The position numbers and the translations under genes were made by a program. Shown here one piece after another: positions 10,132 through 57,434 of a stretch of 64,000 bases of DNA (positions are counted from its first letter, which is position 1; each line of letters opens with the position of its first letter). Under the pieces are notes generated by a model. The model worked only from the letters and a program-made list of their open reading frames with translations. It did no database searches and was not told the DNA's origin. The DNA is from Chloroflexota bacterium (GTDB taxonomy: Bacteria; Chloroflexota; Anaerolineae; Anaerolineales; Anaerolineaceae), in assembly GCA_016887485.1 (NCBI GenBank), contig CP069394.1, positions 1,054,001 to 1,118,000 of the forward strand, read 5' to 3'.

Positions 10132-12204
10132 ATGAACCTCCGTAAACTTCGCCTTCATCTTTCACCTAAGCGATTTACGGTTCAGTTGATCGTCATCTTT
10201 GTGGCATTCACCCTCGGGACGATCCTGGCATTAGGCATTCCTGCGACTCTCGTGCTGGAGCATCAGACCCAAACCCAGCTCAAAGCCCTCTTGGATCAGG
10301 CCGATCATACCACCCAGGCCCTTTTAGATAGCAAACTTAATCAACTCGATAACCTGGCTGTCCTTCTGGTCCAGCGCCCTACCTTGAAATCTCTATTAGC
10401 AATCAATGCCGATTCAGAAACTCTTCACACCTACCTGGTAGGCATCCAAAATAGTTCTGGTTTTGACGCCATCCTGATTTGCGATGGAGAAACTCCTCTC
10501 GCCTCAGCCAGTCCAGAGGATACCGACAGACTATGCGAGAGAACTTCATCAGGCAATATCCTTTCCATTGAGGGGACAGCCTGGATGGTTACCCAGGCCC
10601 CACTGGAAAACGGAAACGATATTGTGGTCGGACAGCTATTGAGTGGGATCATAAATGAATTTACAACCCAAAGCAGACTGGATTACGCTTTTTACATTGA
10701 CAATGACCTGGTCAGCAGCAACCTAGCCGTTCACCCCACGGAACTTGATCACATCAAACCAAAAAACCTGACCAATTACCAAATCCTATCCCTGCCTGCT
10801 GAAGGTCAGGGAAACCAAATAGTGATGGTCAAGACACTAACCGGGCTCGACAATCCCGATCAGCAGTGGCTGGCTTTCCTCCATGTTGCGCCGTATATCC
10901 AGGCGAATCGGCAATTACGCTGGATCATTATTCTAGTCCTATCGCTCATCAGCCTCCTGGCGGCTTTCCTTGCGGTCATCATTTCCAGAAAGATCAGTAA
11001 GCCCCTCAACAAACTTGCTCAATCCGCGGTTCGGCTCCGTGAAGGAGATCTCACCACCCAATTAACCACAGTCTCCGACCTTTGGGAAATTGACCAACTC
11101 GCCAATGCGCTTGAAGATGCGCGGGTCAGCCTAAAACACTCCCTGGATCAGCTCCAGAAGGAAAAAATCTGGATCGAAGGGCTGCTCAACGCCATTGTGG
11201 AAGGCCTGCTCACGCTGGACAATCGCCATTATGTGACCTTTGCCAGCGCCTCCACCTTCCGGCTCACCGGCAAAACACCCTCAGAGATCATCGGTGCACC
11301 CATTGACGAGATCCTCACAACCATGCCCGGCGAGGATCGTTTCAGCCAACAGATCCCCCTGGCGGATCAGGTCCGCCGGATACCGGTCCTGATTGGTGAG
11401 AAAGAAGTCCTGCTGGCCGTATCCCGCTCCGAATTTATCCCACCCGATGCCGGCAACGCCACCACAGCCCTGGTAATCCGGGATGTTTCCGACGAAGAAC
11501 GCATCCATCATCTGATCGGCGAGTTCATGGCCAACATCACCCATGAATTCCGGACGCCATTGGCAGCCCTCTCGGCATCGGTTGAGCTTCTGGTCGACCA
11601 GCTCCCAGATCTCACGCCACCTGAAATTGAACAGCTCCTCCATACGATCAATATCGGCATCGTCAATCTCCAATCCCTGATCGACAACCTGATCGAAGCT
11701 GCCAGCATTGAAGGCGGTCGCTTCAAAGTCAATCCACAGCCGGTTGCCTTCAGTCAGATTGTGGAAGAGGCCGTACTGACGATGGAGCCAATTGCCCGCC
11801 TGCATCACGTTTCCATCAAAAGCCCCGAAACGAAACAAGATATCATCGTGAGAGCGGATAAACGCCGGACAATCCAGGTGCTGATCAATCTGCTTTCCAA
11901 CGCCATCAAGCACAGCCCGCAGGAAAGTCAGATTACCATTCGCTCCCTTTTGATTGAGAAGGCCATCCTGGTGGAAGTGCAGGACCAAGGTTCGGGCATT
12001 CCTGAGAATCTGCAAAACCAGGTCTTCAACCGTTTCCTCACGCCAAAATCCGCAGAAGATGCCCCCCAATTGGGGCTTGGGCTGGGCTTATCGGTAGTAA
12101 AAGCCATTATCGAATCCCAATCCGGTCAGGTGGGGTACTGCAACCCTGAAACCGGTGGCGCCCTTTTCTGGTTTACCCTGCCAACCACCTCTGGAGGTGA
12201 ATGA
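10132..12204 (+). CDS. Membrane sensor histidine kinase (CACHE-HAMP-PAS-HisKA-HATPase)
   Basis: Senses an external or envelope signal and phosphorylates the regulator encoded next. It has 690 residues: a membrane segment at about 18-42, an extracytoplasmic sensor of about 215 residues resembling a double CACHE domain, a second membrane segment at about 262-285, HAMP to about 345, a PAS domain to about 440, HisKA with MANITHEFRTPLAAL (phospho-acceptor His471) and a HATPase with NLLSNAIKHSP, DQGSGIP and LGLGLSVVKAI. It overlaps the response regulator by four bases (ATGA), indicating translational coupling. Its position directly ahead of a sulfate-type ABC operon suggests, without proving, that it senses sulfur status. 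Confidence 0.94.
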   Translation: MNLRKLRLHLSPKRFTVQLIVIFVAFTLGTILALGIPATLVLEHQTQTQLKALLDQADHTTQALLDSKLNQLDNLAVLLVQRPTLKSLLAINADSETLHTYLVGIQNSSGFDAILICDGETPLASASPEDTDRLCERTSSGNILSIEGTAWMVTQAPLENGNDIVVGQLLSGIINEFTTQSRLDYAFYIDNDLVSSNLAVHPTELDHIKPKNLTNYQILSLPAEGQGNQIVMVKTLTGLDNPDQQWLAFLHVAPYIQANRQLRWIIILVLSLISLLAAFLAVIISRKISKPLNKLAQSAVRLREGDLTTQLTTVSDLWEIDQLANALEDARVSLKHSLDQLQKEKIWIEGLLNAIVEGLLTLDNRHYVTFASASTFRLTGKTPSEIIGAPIDEILTTMPGEDRFSQQIPLADQVRRIPVLIGEKEVLLAVSRSEFIPPDAGNATTALVIRDVSDEERIHHLIGEFMANITHEFRTPLAALSASVELLVDQLPDLTPPEIEQLLHTINIGIVNLQSLIDNLIEAASIEGGRFKVNPQPVAFSQIVEEAVLTMEPIARLHHVSIKSPETKQDIIVRADKRRTIQVLINLLSNAIKHSPQESQITIRSLLIEKAILVEVQDQGSGIPENLQNQVFNRFLTPKSAEDAPQLGLGLGLSVVKAIIESQSGQVGYCNPETGGALFWFTLPTTSGGE

Positions 12205-12893
12205 TGAAAGCTCTGATCGTTGATGATGATCGCACCTTATCAGATCTCCTGGCCTTCACGCTCCGCAGGGCTGGATTTGAGACTTTATTGGCCTTTGATA
12301 CCCCCGAGGCCATCCGAGTTTTCCATCAGGAACCGGTCGATATCATCATTCTGGATGTCAATTTGCCGGGTGAAAGCCAGCTACGGGACGGCTTTGATGT
12401 TTGCTGTGAGATCCGCAAGACCTCCAATGTCCCCATCATCCTGCTCACCGTGCGCGATGAGGAAGAGGACATCATCAAAGGCCTAAACCTGGGTGCAGAT
12501 GATTACATCCTCAAGCCCTTCAGTCCCCGTCAGTTGGTCGCCCGGGTGCAAACAGTCCTCCGCCGTGCGGGGGAAGGTCAAATACTCTCGTCAGCCCCCT
12601 TCACCATCAAAGATATCTGCTTTGATCCAAACCGGCATGAATTTACCCGCGGGGATTCTGATCCCGTGGTACTCACACGTCTGGAGAGCCAATTGATGGA
12701 AGTGTTATTCCTGAATATCAACCAGGTGCTCCCGACCACCAGCCTGATTGATCATGTTTGGGGTCCCGGCGGTGCCACACAGGAAATGTTGCGGCAGTTG
12801 ATTCGCCGCTTGCGTCAAAAGATTGAAATTGACCCCAGTAATCCCAAGATGATCCAGAATCATCCCGGAATCGGCTACAGTTTCGCTCCCTAG
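12201..12893 (+). CDS. OmpR/PhoB-family response regulator
   Basis: A receiver domain (residues 1-118: acidic pair in VDDD, phospho-acceptor Asp52 in ILDVNLPGE, conserved Lys in LKPF) is joined to a winged-helix DNA-binding domain (about 130-230: LTRLESQLMEVLF, DHVWG, LIRRLRQKIE, HPGIGYSF). GGAGGTGA lies just upstream of twin ATGs. Regulators of this family bind tandem direct repeats about 11 bp apart, which is the spacing found downstream at 12919-12956, so it likely controls the following ABC operon and perhaps its own operon. Confidence 0.95.
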   Translation: MMKALIVDDDRTLSDLLAFTLRRAGFETLLAFDTPEAIRVFHQEPVDIIILDVNLPGESQLRDGFDVCCEIRKTSNVPIILLTVRDEEEDIIKGLNLGADDYILKPFSPRQLVARVQTVLRRAGEGQILSSAPFTIKDICFDPNRHEFTRGDSDPVVLTRLESQLMEVLFLNINQVLPTTSLIDHVWGPGGATQEMLRQLIRRLRQKIEIDPSNPKMIQNHPGIGYSFAP

Positions 12894-34395: not shown

Positions 34396-34401
34396 TTAAG
34401 G

Positions 34402-34797
34402 TGGAGATGGCGGGAATCGAACCCGCGTCCGAAAGAATCGACCCTCGAATATCTACGAGTGTAGTTGACTTATTCAATCTCGCTTAAGGTTAGCCAGCCA
34501 ACGGGGCGACCCTTTCGCAAGCTGTTAGGACCCGAAAGCCCTTCTTTCATGCCATTAACAGCGTCCGGCATGGCATCCTGACTTTGTGTCGCCACACTCA
34601 TGCCCGGCCAGGAAAACGGACGATGAGGGACGTGACCTCTTATGAGATCAGAGCTCTTAGCTCACAGCTTAGGCTGCGAGGGGGAGAGCCGCGTATTCAG
34701 TGCGATTGGCACTTAATTGGTGTACTGAGTTAACGAGTTCGGTACCTCTCGACTCGCAATCCGGGACCAGCCTCTCCCGTCGAAGCCAGTCATCCCC
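34402..34797 (-). ncRNA. ssrA: tmRNA (transfer-messenger RNA)
   Basis: Rescues stalled ribosomes. On the minus strand the 5' end GGGGATGACTGGCTTCGACG starts at 34797 and the 3' tRNA-like end TTCGATTCCCGCCATCTCC A finishes at 34402; the ends pair as a 7-bp acceptor stem. The tag frame lies at 34710-34669 and encodes ANRTEYAALPLAA followed by TAA, so the tag ends LPLAA instead of the common ALAA. The 3' end continues CC then T, so the complete CCA is not encoded. Length about 396 nt, in the normal range for a one-piece tmRNA. Confidence 0.95.
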
Positions 34798-51716: not shown

Positions 51717-51768
51717 TCTAGGCTGGGTAAAATTAGGCGATTATTGACCATAAAATATTGGAGACATT

Positions 51769-54552
51769 TTGGCAAAGACTGTTCAAGGCAAGACCTATCA
51801 ATGGAGACTGGGCGACACACCCATCGGCAGCGGTGATGCGGGTGAGGTGTATGCCGTGGTATGCGTTGAGCAGCCGGAATTGAGCGGCGTCCTGAAGAAG
51901 CCCTCCCGGATTGCCACCGGTGGAACCATCCAGCGCCAGGCCGGGCAGATCGCGCAGGAAGGGCTGGCTCTGGTCCAACTGGAAGGCCTGCCGGAATGCA
52001 AGGCCCACCCCCCACAAGTGCTGGATCGTGCGCCTGAGTTCACGGTGGGTACCGCCAACTTCTTCATCGTCAGCGAGACCGCCTCAGGTGAAGATATGGC
52101 ATCCATACTGGTCCGCACCCGTCAGGAAGGTATCCCCTTCCCGCGCCGGGTGATCCTGACCGTGCTCGATTCCCTCTTTGATCTTTTCGCCCGGGCTCAC
52201 CGCTCCGGCGTGTTGTGGAATGACGTCAAACTTGAACACATCTATTGGGATAACGCCTCAGGCGGTGTAGCCGTGATTGACTGGGGTAATGCCCAATTCC
52301 TGAACCAAACCAACGGCCAGCCACGCGCCCTGCCCCGTTGGGAGGACTATCGCCAGCTGGTGGATACTCTGGGGTTATTCCTTCAACAAACAGCCCCCGA
52401 GCTCTATGATGACCTGGGCTGGTCTGAATTTCAAAGCACGGAACTGGACCGGCCGCGGATTTCAGTTCTGGCCCGCCGGATCGCCTACCAACATGAGGTG
52501 ATCGCCCTGCGCGTGATGGAATATCAATCCCTGATCCGGGTCATCCTCAACAGCGACCCCACAATTGACGGCCTGCAGAAAATCCAGACCTATCAAAAGG
52601 TCCTGCTGCAGATCGGTGCACCCTGGGAAGCTGACCGAGTGCTGGTATATGGTCAGCAACTGGTTGAAGCCTCCCTGGCCACCAGTGACTTCCAATCCGC
52701 CATCCGGGCCACCACCATCATTTGGGACCTTTGCGGTGAAAGGCTGGACCTCGGTTGGCACCTGCTTCGTGAATATTTCCGTAATTCGGATATCCTCACC
52801 CATCCGGCGTTGAAAGACCTGGTCATAGCTACCCTCCATGACAATTGGAACCGAGCCCTTTGGCATCTGGCCCAAATTGCGCGTGATAATGAGCCCAATT
52901 CCTGGTGGAACCAGCTCATCCCGGTTATCCGGCAAAAAGCGCTGGGTACCGCCACAGCTCTCCCCCGTCAGATTGGCCAAAGTCTGCTGGAATGGGTTCA
53001 ATCCGGACCTTCCGCCGATCCCGTGGAAGTTGCTGAACTGCAATCGACCATCAATCACTGGCGAGACAAAGGCGCTGACCTGGCGGAAAGCCCCTTTGAA
53101 TACACTTTATTGGATATGGTTCGCACCCGGGCTAACCTCCCCCGAAGACTGCGAACAGAATTAAAAGTTGGTTTCGCCGGTGGTGAAGATGCCATCCGAA
53201 CCCTGCTGCAATCCTGGGTCAATATGGACTGGGAAAACCTGCCAAAGGCTTTCCGCCAGGCGCTCGCCTGGGACCCTGACCGCTGGGGCATTCTCCATCT
53301 GGCGGATGAAGTGAGCTCTTTCCAGAAATGGCTTGAAGTACTATCCGCCGGCCCAGCCACCCGCAACGAATCGGCTAGGTTTATCGAGTCACAATTAAAT
53401 TCACGCCCTCAACTGGAACGTCTGATGGGTGCGCCACCCTGGCTTGAGGCTTTACTATCCATGCTGGAACAAATCCACGCCGGCGACTACCTGGCTGATT
53501 TGCAGGTAGGCATTGAGAGCTGGTGTCCGTGGCTGTTAGGCTATGAGACCATTCATGACACCGAACCCAAGCTGGCCTCACCTGATGATGAGACCATCGC
53601 CAGAGTGCTGACGAATTTCAGCCAGCATATCAAGACCTGGTCCGATCTGGATGCCGGTCTGGCAAGCGTTAAAAGCATTGCCCCAGCCTTCTACCTGCCA
53701 TGCAAACGGCTCTCGGAAGGCTTCCAAAGCATTTTCCACCTCAATCTGGACCTCGCTGAACTGAAAACTGACTGTCAGGTCTCCGGTCAGCCCGCTTTGG
53801 AAGAGTGCTGTGCCGTTCTCGAACATTTAATCGCCTGGCGTGAGGCTTTGGAAGCACAAGACCTGAACAAAGCCCTGGGCTGCCTGGAAACCGAAGCCTA
53901 TCCCGGTTGGCGGATTCTTGAACACACCCGGCATACCACCTCACAGTGGACGGTGCAAACCCAGCCCTGCCTGAAGGCCATCTCCAATCTGGAGACTGCA
54001 GAATGCCCCCTGGCCGAATCTCATCTCCAGAGATTACTTACAGTCCTGAATGAAATGAAGGACAAATGGGAACAGATCTATACAACCAGCCCTCATCAGG
54101 TTCTCCTGGAATATCTGGAGACCAGCAGCGATACACTCCAATCTGAATATTTAGCCTGGCGCAAAGACATGGATCACGTCTCGGATGAAACCTTCCGGCT
54201 GATCTATCATGCCCAATTGCGTCAGGTCCGGGCCATTTCAGACAGCTTCCTGAAATTAGCCCAGCACAGCCGCCAGGCCCGCCTGAGTTACGCCAGCCTG
54301 GAAGAAGATAATGCCCTACCCTACATGCGGCAGTTACAGGCAGGTGTGAACCTTTTGGATCACCTTGCCGCCATTGAGGCCATCTTGATCAGAGACGAGG
54401 CTGCCCACCGCTTCCCAGCCTGGCATGATGCCTTTCAAACCATTGCCAGCCTGGGTCCCATCGCCGAACAGCGGGATACGATCCTGGAAATGGATCGTTC
54501 CCACCCCCTCTATGCCTGGCTGGTACAATCAACGCTTGGATCTGAGCATTAG
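51769..54552 (+). CDS. Divergent protein-kinase-fold protein with long helical C-terminal region
   Basis: A protein of 927 residues starting at TTG with GGAG a few bases upstream; no nearby ATG fits. Residues 1-210 follow the protein kinase fold: glycine loop GSGDAGEVY (20-28), candidate ATP lysine Lys43 or Lys44, helix-C Glu64, catalytic loop WNDVKLEHIYWD with Asp152 and Lys154, and DWG (171-173) in place of DFG. The Mg-binding Asn of ordinary kinases is His157. Residues about 230-927 are rich in Trp, Leu and Gln, look mostly helical, and match no family I know. First of three closely spaced co-directional genes. Kinase activity is possible but uncertain. Confidence 0.65.
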   Translation: MAKTVQGKTYQWRLGDTPIGSGDAGEVYAVVCVEQPELSGVLKKPSRIATGGTIQRQAGQIAQEGLALVQLEGLPECKAHPPQVLDRAPEFTVGTANFFIVSETASGEDMASILVRTRQEGIPFPRRVILTVLDSLFDLFARAHRSGVLWNDVKLEHIYWDNASGGVAVIDWGNAQFLNQTNGQPRALPRWEDYRQLVDTLGLFLQQTAPELYDDLGWSEFQSTELDRPRISVLARRIAYQHEVIALRVMEYQSLIRVILNSDPTIDGLQKIQTYQKVLLQIGAPWEADRVLVYGQQLVEASLATSDFQSAIRATTIIWDLCGERLDLGWHLLREYFRNSDILTHPALKDLVIATLHDNWNRALWHLAQIARDNEPNSWWNQLIPVIRQKALGTATALPRQIGQSLLEWVQSGPSADPVEVAELQSTINHWRDKGADLAESPFEYTLLDMVRTRANLPRRLRTELKVGFAGGEDAIRTLLQSWVNMDWENLPKAFRQALAWDPDRWGILHLADEVSSFQKWLEVLSAGPATRNESARFIESQLNSRPQLERLMGAPPWLEALLSMLEQIHAGDYLADLQVGIESWCPWLLGYETIHDTEPKLASPDDETIARVLTNFSQHIKTWSDLDAGLASVKSIAPAFYLPCKRLSEGFQSIFHLNLDLAELKTDCQVSGQPALEECCAVLEHLIAWREALEAQDLNKALGCLETEAYPGWRILEHTRHTTSQWTVQTQPCLKAISNLETAECPLAESHLQRLLTVLNEMKDKWEQIYTTSPHQVLLEYLETSSDTLQSEYLAWRKDMDHVSDETFRLIYHAQLRQVRAISDSFLKLAQHSRQARLSYASLEEDNALPYMRQLQAGVNLLDHLAAIEAILIRDEAAHRFPAWHDAFQTIASLGPIAEQRDTILEMDRSHPLYAWLVQSTLGSEH

Positions 54553-54578
54553 ACCAAAAACGAATTGAAAGAAGGACC

Positions 54579-55595
54579 ATGGAAACACTCTCCGTTGGAC
54601 CCAATGAAAAAATGCAATTTACTGAACCTCTGGACACCTGGCTTTCCGCCGGCCTTAGGGATTTCGCCGTGCCGGAAGCCGTAGGTTCCTCTGCGCGGGT
54701 ATTTAGTCTTTCCTATGCCCCGCTCTCGGGTGACTACGCGAATTCGCCGGCCATCAAGGTGATGCGGCCGGATAAGCTTCAATATGCCCTGCCCCTATTC
54801 CGAACCGAGATCCAGATTCTGGATCGGCTCAAAGACATCCCCGGCATCACCCCGATGCTGGGTATGGGGTTCCTCAAACCCACCGAATTCCACTGGCCGG
54901 ACGAGATCGCCCCATTGACAACCTCCCTCGAACAGGCCGCCTCCGCCAGTAATTTAACCGGCGCCTTCGACCTTTATGGACCGGAGGAAACTGAGGCTGT
55001 GCTGGCTGAGTTGGAAGAGCGCACGGCTGAGGGCTGGCTGGCCGCGATCATCTTACCCCGCCGCTGGGAAGATAACCTCTATATGCGCGCCGACGCCGGT
55101 TACACTCGTGGTGACTTCCACCGCAGCTACCCGCTGATTGACGCGCTGCAAGCATCCATCCAGATTTGCGGGATCATGGCAGCCGCCCATGAAAACAATG
55201 TCATCTACCTGGATCATAAGGTGCTTCACTATTATTGGAACGAGCCGCGCAAACAGGTTTATGCACTCGACTGGAACATCGGCCGCCTGATCACTAATGG
55301 CAACTCCGAAGAGGTCTATGCCTTTGACGTCCTGCAATTCAGCGCCCGTGCCCTGCACCACCTGCTCACGGGCCGTCAGGCGCCTGGCTCAGTCAAGGTT
55401 GGCCCTAACCGGCCCGAGGATATCCAGAACGCACCGGAAAAATATGACCCGATTTGGACCTATGATGACCAGAAACGCTTGACGGAAGACGAACTCAACG
55501 TTCTGGGCGATGCCATTCAAGGGAAATACCAGACCCCTGGCGCATTGGCGGAAGACCTGCAATCCCTGTATAATCAACGTCAATCCCAAAGTTAA
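54579..55595 (+). CDS. Second divergent protein-kinase-fold protein
   Basis: A protein of 338 residues, 26 bases after the previous gene, with AGAAGGA before the ATG. Kinase landmarks: a glycine-poor loop AVGSSARVF (34-42), AIKVM with Lys60, helix-C Glu77, catalytic loop YLDHKVLHYYW with Asp212 and Lys214, and DWN (231-233) in place of DFG. As in its neighbour, the Asn is replaced by His (His217), so the two belong to one unusual sub-branch. An insertion of about 75 residues (103-180) sits near the hinge. No membrane segment. Probably forms a functional pair with the upstream protein. Confidence 0.65.
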   Translation: METLSVGPNEKMQFTEPLDTWLSAGLRDFAVPEAVGSSARVFSLSYAPLSGDYANSPAIKVMRPDKLQYALPLFRTEIQILDRLKDIPGITPMLGMGFLKPTEFHWPDEIAPLTTSLEQAASASNLTGAFDLYGPEETEAVLAELEERTAEGWLAAIILPRRWEDNLYMRADAGYTRGDFHRSYPLIDALQASIQICGIMAAAHENNVIYLDHKVLHYYWNEPRKQVYALDWNIGRLITNGNSEEVYAFDVLQFSARALHHLLTGRQAPGSVKVGPNRPEDIQNAPEKYDPIWTYDDQKRLTEDELNVLGDAIQGKYQTPGALAEDLQSLYNQRQSQS

Positions 55596-55616
55596 CTTTG
55601 CGGTGAAAGGAACGTT

Positions 55617-57434
55617 ATGCTGAAAAACCTCATCCTACGGGCAAAGACAGTTTTAGACGAGCCCCATCCATCAGAACAGGAATTGGTGGAGGTTGAAAAC
55701 GCGCTCAGTGCCTTTCTGGAAGCGCTGGCCACTGAACGCATTGCCGAACCCGTGGATTTCACCGAACTCGAACATGCCAACCGCTTGCTGCGGGAAGTCC
55801 GCCGGGAACGCTCTCGTCGGCTGGCAGAAATGCAATATCAGGACCAGGCCGCGAAGCCTATCCAACCTCAAAGCATCCCTAACGGCCAGCCGCAAACATC
55901 CGTAAACGTGTCACCTCAATTCAACGACGACGATACCTACGATCCTTTGCGGAAATTCCTCAGCTCGAGCCACGATCCGGAAGCTGAAGCGATCATGGAC
56001 TCGGCTGAAGAGGCTTTTTATGCCGGCAATTACCAAAAAGCCATCCCGCTCTATGAGAATGTGCTCCAGGTTGAACCCGGCTGGTCCCGTGCCAAAGAAC
56101 ACCGTGACGAAGCTGAAGAATTCCTGCGGACCGGGAACATCCCCTCGGTAGCGCTGCCACCAGAAGCCGGTAAGGCTTATGGGAAGGCCCAATCCGCTGC
56201 TCGTGTGTTCCGTTATCAAACCGCCCTGGATTACCTCGATGAAGCTTTTACCAGCCTTCAGGAAGCCGGCATCAACCGCTGGCGTGAGGGTGAAGACCTG
56301 CGTCAGGACCTTGAAAACCAGATGCAGGCCCATGACGTCTTTGAAGAAGGGCTGGCACTGCTCCTTCAGGGCGATCTTCAAGGCGGGCTCGCTAAAGTAC
56401 AGACAGCGGCCAGTGCCGTGGCTTTGCCAGAATATGTTGATAAAGCGGCTGAAATCCGCAGTGATATCTCTGCACTCGATGAAATTGCCGATGTGATGAA
56501 CCTCAGCGGCAACATTCCGCCGGACAAATTGGCGGAAGCACGCACCCGGATTGACCGCCTGTCGGTTAAATATGGCGAGGTGCCCCAAATCTCCCGTCTA
56601 CGGAACCGGATGGATATCGTCCTCCCCGCCGTCACTGCTTCTCTCCTGGATAAGATCAACCGGATGAAGCGCCAGGGAGATGCCGCCACAACGCTCAAAT
56701 CAGCCAAATCGTCTTATGATGAAGCGGTTGAAGCCCTGGAAACGCTCCAGATCCTCACTCCCGATAATGCTCAAGGGAAAACGCTGCAAGCCGAATCCCA
56801 GGAATCCCAGCATGTGATGGGCAACCTGGAAGACAGCCTCAAACGGGCTGTTCAGGCACTCAACACTGAAAGCCGGTTCTTCCCGCGCAACGCCTATCTG
56901 ATCAGCAAAGACGTCCGAACCCGCTTCCCCCACGATCCGGAAGTGTTGGAACTCAAACGCCGTCTGCGTTGGTATTATGTCACCCTCTATGGCGGCGGCG
57001 GCATTGCCGGTATCATCGTGATCCTGGCTCTGTGGTTCGGTGGACGTGGAATCGTAGGTGCGGTACGTACCCGCCAGTTAGCACTGACCCCTTCCCCCAC
57101 CATGACAGCGACGATCACCCAGACGCCCACGATTACACCCACGCCCACCATCACACCCACTCCGACACCGGACTATACGCCGACACCGAACTTCACGCCG
57201 ACCAGCACCCCGGTCATCACCGGCACGCTGCTTCGAACCGTTTGGGTCCGTGAGGGCTGCTATGAAAATCAGGTCGCCAAGAGCCGGATCCCGGAGGGTG
57301 CAGTTGTGACCCTGATTTCCATCCCCGAGCGGGTCTTTGATACTCTCAACCGGGAATGCGTCCTGGTTGAATATCGGACGGAAGATGCCTCAGCAATCGG
57401 CTATATCCTCCTGATGGATTTGACCATCCCCTAA
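55617..57434 (+). CDS. Single-pass membrane protein: cytoplasmic helical repeats, Thr/Pro linker, extracellular SH3-like tail
   Basis: A protein of 605 residues, 21 bases after the second kinase-like gene. Residues 1-100 are charged helix; 120-180 contain a TPR-like unit (EEAFYAGNYQKAIPLYENVLQVEPG); helical segments continue to about 445. One membrane segment lies at about 455-476. Outside it is a Thr/Pro-rich linker (about 491-536, repeats of TPTITPTPT) and a final domain of about 65 residues (TVWVREGCYENQVAKSRIPEGA) resembling bacterial SH3-like wall-binding domains. The layout suggests a receptor or scaffold for the two kinase-like proteins; this is inference. Confidence 0.68.
   Translation: MLKNLILRAKTVLDEPHPSEQELVEVENALSAFLEALATERIAEPVDFTELEHANRLLREVRRERSRRLAEMQYQDQAAKPIQPQSIPNGQPQTSVNVSPQFNDDDTYDPLRKFLSSSHDPEAEAIMDSAEEAFYAGNYQKAIPLYENVLQVEPGWSRAKEHRDEAEEFLRTGNIPSVALPPEAGKAYGKAQSAARVFRYQTALDYLDEAFTSLQEAGINRWREGEDLRQDLENQMQAHDVFEEGLALLLQGDLQGGLAKVQTAASAVALPEYVDKAAEIRSDISALDEIADVMNLSGNIPPDKLAEARTRIDRLSVKYGEVPQISRLRNRMDIVLPAVTASLLDKINRMKRQGDAATTLKSAKSSYDEAVEALETLQILTPDNAQGKTLQAESQESQHVMGNLEDSLKRAVQALNTESRFFPRNAYLISKDVRTRFPHDPEVLELKRRLRWYYVTLYGGGGIAGIIVILALWFGGRGIVGAVRTRQLALTPSPTMTATITQTPTITPTPTITPTPTPDYTPTPNFTPTSTPVITGTLLRTVWVREGCYENQVAKSRIPEGAVVTLISIPERVFDTLNRECVLVEYRTEDASAIGYILLMDLTIP

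Follow-up and report, generated by a model that had tools for sequence, protein, structure and literature searches.

Two kinase-fold proteins with a conserved histidine at the metal site and a TPR-like membrane protein form a conserved gene set in Anaerolineae

Three consecutive genes encode K1, K2 and R3

The window analysed here is a stretch of 64,000 nucleotides (contig CP069394.1, positions 1,054,001 to 1,118,000 of the forward strand) from the 2.9 Mb genome of a Chloroflexota bacterium of the family Anaerolineaceae. It harbours three consecutive open reading frames, designated K1, K2 and R3, which all reside on the + strand and are separated by spacers of 26 and 21 bases, confirming the co-directional, closely spaced genes noted in a preliminary description of this DNA:

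51760..51763, + strand: GGAG, probable ribosome-binding site of K1, as judged from the sequence
51769..54552, + strand: K1, 927 aa; N-terminal kinase domain (approximately aa 1-240) and a long helical C-terminal part
54579..55595, + strand: K2, 338 aa; kinase-fold protein
55617..57434, + strand: R3, 605 aa; TPR-like helices, one membrane segment, Thr/Pro stalk and a small outer beta domain

K1 starts with a TTG codon at 51769, preceded by the GGAG element; its long helical C-terminal part had gone unmentioned in the preliminary description. A gap of 252 bases separates K1 from yebC-, ruvC-, RNA methyltransferase- and ruvA-like genes on its 5' side, and a convergent, ABC-transporter-like set follows 3' of R3 (all assigned by eye). 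The place of the three-gene set after ruvA is conserved within the genus. Scanning for sigma-70 promoters returned 7 promoter-like sites as compared to 3.9 (sd 1.9) expected, and a terminator scan 6 sites as compared to 6.9 expected. The window also contains a tmRNA gene (34400-34797, - strand) with the tag ANRTEYAALPLAA.

Kinase homology of K1 and K2

In Pfam and NCBIfam scans, no window protein reached the curated cut-off of any family. K1 matched Pkinase (PF00069) with E 2.2e-4 and 21.2 of 31.7 bits, and the APH phosphotransferases (PF01636) with 17.7 of 23.2 bits, both under the gathering score, while K2 had no Pfam listing at E 1. PADLOC, which gives no cut-offs, returned kinase-domain matches only for the window proteins. 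Homologues from distant families, that is, from genomes of the same class outside the own family, exceeded the PF00069 gathering score, with 33.5 and 33.8 bits for K1 and 35.2 bits for K2. Profile searches led to the same assignment: the K1 profile matched PDB kinases at E 2.8e-9 and the K2 profile at 1.1e-3, and the two profiles matched each other (hhalign 96%, E 4.5e-9).

For the fold, we modelled a protein of 993 residues from Anaerolinea thermolimosa in which K1 and K2 are naturally fused, using an alignment of 67 rows and obtaining a pLDDT of 92.1 and a pTM of 0.68. The K2 half superimposed on PknB (5u94) with Z 21.2 and rmsd 2.9 over 233 residues (VIA), and Foldseek gave E 1.8e-7 for the same pair. 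As the VIA rows span only fusion residues 677-993, which is the K2 half, the absence of WaaP and APH from them is uninformative. Judged from this fused homologue's model, K2 is predicted to adopt the bilobal kinase fold, and K1 appears homologous to kinases, its fold being assigned from the sequence profile and the secondary structure of the model. Profiles, hhalign and fusion model thus bear out the two kinase-fold proteins of the preliminary description, whose idea of a system would have fallen had the folds not been kinase-like.

Altered residues at the active site are conserved

The catalytic loops and metal sites map as follows:

52216..52290, + strand: K1 catalytic loop and metal site, W150 N151 D152 K154 H157 ... 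D171 W172 G173 N174, in 50/50 near relatives
55206..55277, + strand: K2 catalytic loop and metal site, D212 H213 K214 H217 ... D231 W232 N233, in 56/56 near relatives

The K1 motif reads W150-N-D152-V-K154-L-E-H157 followed by D171-W-G-N174, and the K2 motif D212-H-K214-V-L-H217 followed by D231-W-N233. Five residues past the catalytic Asp, both proteins carry His where an Mg-binding Asn would be expected, namely His157 in 50/50 near relatives of K1 and His217 in 56/56 of K2, representing 50 and 55 distinct catalytic cores, respectively. The D-x-K-x-x-H loop highlighted in the preliminary description is invariant in these near relatives. Control kinase domains, five of which came from the own genome and the rest from the phylum, had Asn and DFG in 17/17 cases when aligned to K1 and in 21/21 when aligned to K2; in these controls only the catalytic-loop and DFG columns were usable, as the N-lobes were unaligned or misaligned. 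Among the near relatives, every row that reaches the columns of the beta3 Lys and alphaC Glu has these residues (49/49 for K1, 55/55 for K2), and the catalytic and metal Asp residues are present in all rows of both proteins. Indeed, the Lys-Glu pair and both Asp are kept in every covering row, near or distant. K1 also keeps the glycine loop, which in K2 has one glycine, and near K1 proteins have the catalytic-loop Lys in 50/50 cases.

Chance or decay as the source of the motif oddities is ruled out by this column conservation. The preliminary description had likewise held that K1 and K2 are not decaying kinases, which gains support from the conserved columns and from WaaP, an enzyme active with His at the same position. 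One could still argue, given that the Asn, DFG and HRD positions are altered, that K1 and K2 are catalytically dead scaffolds in a purely structural system, but retention of Lys, Glu, Asp and Asp in the covering rows would be hard to explain without nucleotide use, and we consider this reading very improbable.

A second oddity singled out earlier, DW instead of DF at the metal site, is present as stated but turns out to be no real departure from the kinase norm, since PDB chain 9av6, the best PDB match of K1, has DWG in its alignment as well. In this alignment the metal site of 9av6, unlike that of K1, contains Asn. CK2, a eukaryotic kinase with a full activation segment, also has DWG in place of DFG.

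Both proteins further possess short activation segments, a trait absent from the preliminary description. The alphaF Asp follows the metal Asp at a distance of 19 residues in 20/20 K2 proteins and of 20-23 residues in 19/19 K1 proteins, as compared to 36-41 in the controls (22/26 control loci fitting the pattern).

In the distant families, rows were counted as distinct cores, which reduced K1 from 39 to 26 and K2 from 12 to 11. The His is present in 25/26 K1 cores and replaced by Gln in one genome (G864), and Asp-Trp-Gly-Asn occurs in 26/26 for the columns counted. The catalytic-loop Lys of distant K1 is replaced in 26/26 cores, by Asp in 25 and by Ala in one. Distant K2 retains His and Lys in 11/11 cores, and the Trp of DWN is exchanged for Phe in two and for Leu in one. 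Given the loss of the loop Lys from distant K1, K1 could serve as regulator and K2 as enzyme, that is, K1 would be a pseudokinase activating K2, like in the pseudokinase/kinase pairs of eukaryotes. The K1-K2 fusions described below would suit such an arrangement. However, near K1 proteins have retained the loop Lys throughout, K1 preserves the glycine loop, beta3 Lys, alphaC Glu and both Asp, and WaaP, in which Tyr occupies the position of the loop Lys, is an active enzyme. On balance, we regard a purely regulatory K1 as decidedly unlikely.

Comparison with the LPS heptose kinase WaaP

The closest precedent for the metal site is WaaP (RfaP, PF06293), the LPS heptose kinase, which has a kinase fold and a His metal site as in K1 and K2. 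According to the WaaP study (PMC6147952), the second Mg is coordinated by His168, where PKA uses Asn171, the activation loop is shortened and free of regulatory elements, and an H168A mutant showed no growth, for which a table gives 'substrate binding' as rationale. The segment from D188 to the alphaF D206 measures 18 residues (PMC6147952), and the E. coli WaaP motif reads HRDCYICH. More generally, Kannan et al. (PMC1821047) state that almost all of ten key kinase residues are replaced in at least one family. In light of the WaaP His and of these replacements, the active-site oddities of K1 and K2 are compatible with activity. WaaP differs in being an enzyme of LPS synthesis with acyl-ACP bound to its C-terminal subdomain (PMC6147952), whereas the window set comprises two kinase-fold proteins and a TPR membrane protein. 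In the PF06293 search, the cut-off was not reached: window proteins were unlisted, and one distant K1 scored 19.0 of 21.3 bits (E 1e-3).

R3 combines TPR-like helices, a membrane segment and an outer domain

56970..57038, + strand: R3 membrane segment, approximately aa 452-474, from sequence and within a long helix of the model
57087..57218, + strand: R3 Thr/Pro-rich stalk, approximately aa 491-534, from sequence, with low pLDDT
57213..57416, + strand: R3 outer beta domain with only two Cys (Cys548, Cys581), strands in the model

The R3 model (pLDDT 83.9; its numbering is one below protein numbering) comprises 18 helices, a long helix 440-488 containing the membrane segment, the stalk and six strands between 533 and 597. 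The best Foldseek matches were TPR proteins, namely P58(IPK) and a designed TPR, with probability 1.00 and E 5e-4 to 7e-4 but low TM-scores of 0.09-0.22. Pfam TPR scored above cut-off in a distant R3 and below it in window R3. Collectively, model and matches predict a TPR-like fold. Exactly two Cys occur past residue 480 in 46/47 R3 rows and none ahead of residue 450 in 45/47, the window protein included in both counts; this pair would fit a disulphide on the outer side. Thus, the TPR-like helices, the single membrane segment and the Thr/Pro stalk of the preliminary description hold, but an SH3-like nature of the outer domain is tentative: the sole Pfam listing for this part of window R3 was HlyD_D23 at E 0.17, SH3_3 was not listed, and a distant R3 reached 21.6 of 27 bits against SH3_3, under the cut-off.

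Gene order and fusions in near relatives

Among 147 genomes of the own family, K1 found a match in 51 and K2 in 47; the R3 query matched 145/147, a number inflated by stalk matches and of no use as a count. K2-derived patterns searched across 84,980 species retrieved 57 loci, all in Chloroflexota and two of them (L109 and L112) from one genome. R3 follows K2 in 54/57 loci, and K1 lies ahead of K2 or is fused to it in 50/57. All loci missing a partner sit at contig ends: in the three loci without R3 the contig ends 0, 18 and 0 bases past K2, and in the seven without K1 the contig end is at most 1385 bases before K2. K1 and K2 are fused in 16/57 loci, two of which are cut by contig ends. In two apparent fusions (L094, L100) K1 and K2 occupy different frames, and in L077 K1 is split.

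Individual loci showed additional features. In one Brevefilum MAG, approximately 5 kb are inserted near the K1 3' end (L062:2970-7926), leaving K2 and R3 intact; the insert holds a transposase-like and a large mannosidase-like ORF, both assigned by eye. Fragments matching only the first 40 K1 residues were detected at G017:C27:3771-3890, where the fragment follows R3, and at G015:C57:5425-5544. In four genomes of one genus (g3), a gene for a metallo-beta-lactamase-fold hydrolase (by eye) immediately precedes the fused K1-K2 gene:

L036:8614-9474, hydrolase gene, by eye
L037:7155-7913, hydrolase gene, by eye
L038:12290-13036, hydrolase gene, by eye
L039:11794-12540, hydrolase gene, by eye

Joint presence and absence in distant genomes

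A search of 396 genomes of the class identified 37 outside the own family with a strong K1 match (E < 1e-19). In 33 of these 37, K1 is an open frame of 1300-1570 aa, and at the loci examined a simple hydropathy scan indicates that it carries a hydrophobic segment of its own. K2 was present in 36/37 of the strong-K1 genomes (E 1e-66 or better) and R3 in 37/37 (E 1e-46 or better). The exception, G688, has K1 and R3 without K2, its listed K2 match being its K1. The three genes are adjacent and in the same order in distant families at loci L176-L181 and L193. The distant family f13 accounts for 27 of the 37 genomes, and in every one of them the best matches are scattered, either over separate contigs or at long range; in G820 of this family the separation of K1, K2 and R3 is evident within one contig.

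Conversely, among 68 genomes that lack a strong K1 and were picked by hand, neither K2 (0/68) nor R3 (0/68) was found at a threshold of 1e-10. This choice, made among genomes in which K1 matched weakly (E > 1e-8) or not at all, was not blind: 12 of the 68, from the own family, had been searched earlier for K2 and R3, and others belonged to an earlier sample. In 13 genomes of the K2 search and 11 of the R3 search, part of the first-look candidates was left unscored. The queries do match in strong-K1 genomes, and all presence and absence counts ignore phylogeny. In a sample of 400 genomes from the phylum, with at most four candidates scored per genome, K2 was detected at 1e-10 in nine, eight from the own family and one from elsewhere in the class. 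All nine belong to one class of Chloroflexota, probably the Anaerolineae. The preliminary description had made the idea of a system depend on homologues co-occurring as a set, which they do, both at the 57 loci and in the 37 distant genomes.

A second, diverged set exists in one genome (L182:154-7969; G755:C2), with a K1-like protein of 1553 aa, a K2-like protein of 389 aa (motifs DHKLSH and DFN) and, in R3's position, an ORF of 647 aa that contains a hydrophobic segment.

Neighbours of the distant copies

Further partners were sought at 21 loci of distant genomes by clustering the neighbours rather than annotating them singly; 18 of these loci yielded the centre gene. K1, K2 and R3 themselves aside, no further conserved partner emerged, the commonest neighbour clusters occurring in 5 of the 21 loci, and the unlinked copies have no partner gene common to most genera. 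In two distant genera, PP2C phosphatase genes are divergent to K2 (L143:6648-7646, - strand; L214:7997-9067, + strand), and it is possible that they encode a counter-enzyme. At L143, an ORF with TIR and FHA-like parts (by eye; 11828-12727, - strand) is located a few genes from K2.

At L143 and L208, a penicillin-binding-protein-like gene, recognized by eye, lies near K2. This gene may point to an alternative role of K1 and K2, in which they would be WaaP-like kinases of a non-protein envelope molecule, such as a glycan or lipid, recruited to the membrane by R3. The His in place of Asn and the short activation segment, both common to WaaP, fit this scenario, as does the weak PF06293 match of one distant K1. 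Yet this same K1 stays below the PF06293 cut-off and above that of Pkinase, the K2 half superimposes well on PknB, and no neighbour family exceeds 5 of the 21 loci examined. We therefore rate a WaaP-like role as unlikely.

K1 and K2 form two ancient clades

A tree was calculated from 70 kinase cores, comprising 10 near and 13 distant K1, 10 near and 11 distant K2, 25 ordinary kinases and WaaP. Near and distant K1 group together (support 98/85), as do near and distant K2 (100/99), and the ordinary kinases are set apart from both (98/99). As the root is the midpoint and the WaaP branch is very long, the tree is read for the two clades rather than for the relationships among K1, K2 and WaaP. Since near and distant members share clades, K1 and K2 both predate the split of the families. 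The shared substitutions had been taken in the preliminary description as a sign of one dedicated family; one dedicated system is indeed what fusions, gene order and joint presence and absence indicate, but K1 and K2 constitute two separate, well-supported clades.

Relation to known kinase systems

K2 resembles Ser/Thr kinases of the PknB type (PF00069) in its bilobal fold, as modelled in the fused homologue, and distant K1 in combining a kinase domain with one hydrophobic segment within a single protein. Unlike these kinases, K1 and K2 lack the Asn and a full activation segment, and in the window the membrane part is on a separate protein. The best PADLOC match of K1 was the kinase-domain model PD-T4-6 (E 3.2e-8), limited to the kinase domain and partial (model positions 39-192 of 372); K2 matched at E 0.041. 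In contrast to PD-T4-6, K1 and K2 belong to a three-gene set with a conserved place after ruvA within the genus, and K2 had no plasmid match. Among the open-access PMC papers listed, none was recognised as describing the K1/K2/R3 system, which is weak evidence of novelty. Membrane-linked kinase signalling in bacteria is itself known; K1 and K2 would add to it kinase-fold families with an unusual active site.

A candidate membrane-anchored signalling unit

Taken together, the genes occur in three arrangements, that is as three genes, as a K1-K2 fusion plus R3, and as K2 and R3 together with a K1 that carries a hydrophobic segment. Together with their joint presence and absence, this makes a functional, probably also physical, unit the best reading. 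We consider it rather probable that the three proteins K1, K2 and R3 make up a dedicated phospho-signalling system that is anchored at the membrane and belongs to one class of Chloroflexota, probably the Anaerolineae. For such a system we infer a physical complex, ATP turnover, a membrane topology, an envelope signal, a signal direction and a target. R3 would anchor the complex at the membrane, with its TPR-like part directed to the cytoplasm and the Thr/Pro stalk presenting the small outer domain to the envelope. K1 and K2 would be ancient kinase-fold proteins with a WaaP-like metal site that act jointly and have become fused in some genera. Their short activation segments suggest that they are switched by partner contact, probably, rather than by phosphorylation of the activation loop. 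A change outside the cell would be passed through the membrane helix of R3 to the K1-K2 pair, leading to phosphorylation of a target. Going further, these proteins could represent a new kind of receptor kinase, with an obligate His-metal-site pair working as one heteromeric enzyme or as a couple of kinase and regulator, bound to a transmembrane receptor of TPR type and inherited as a unit in one Chloroflexota class, its families absent from Pfam and NCBIfam; this broader proposal is tentative, and we hold it to be possible rather than probable.

To our knowledge, signalling in this class of Chloroflexota has been little studied, and the gene set would provide it with a defined signalling unit that has a named carrier strain, Anaerolinea thermolimosa IMO-1. 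It may also offer natural tests of whether kinases beyond LPS synthesis can use His instead of the Mg-binding Asn, and of how two kinases are controlled without a long activation loop.
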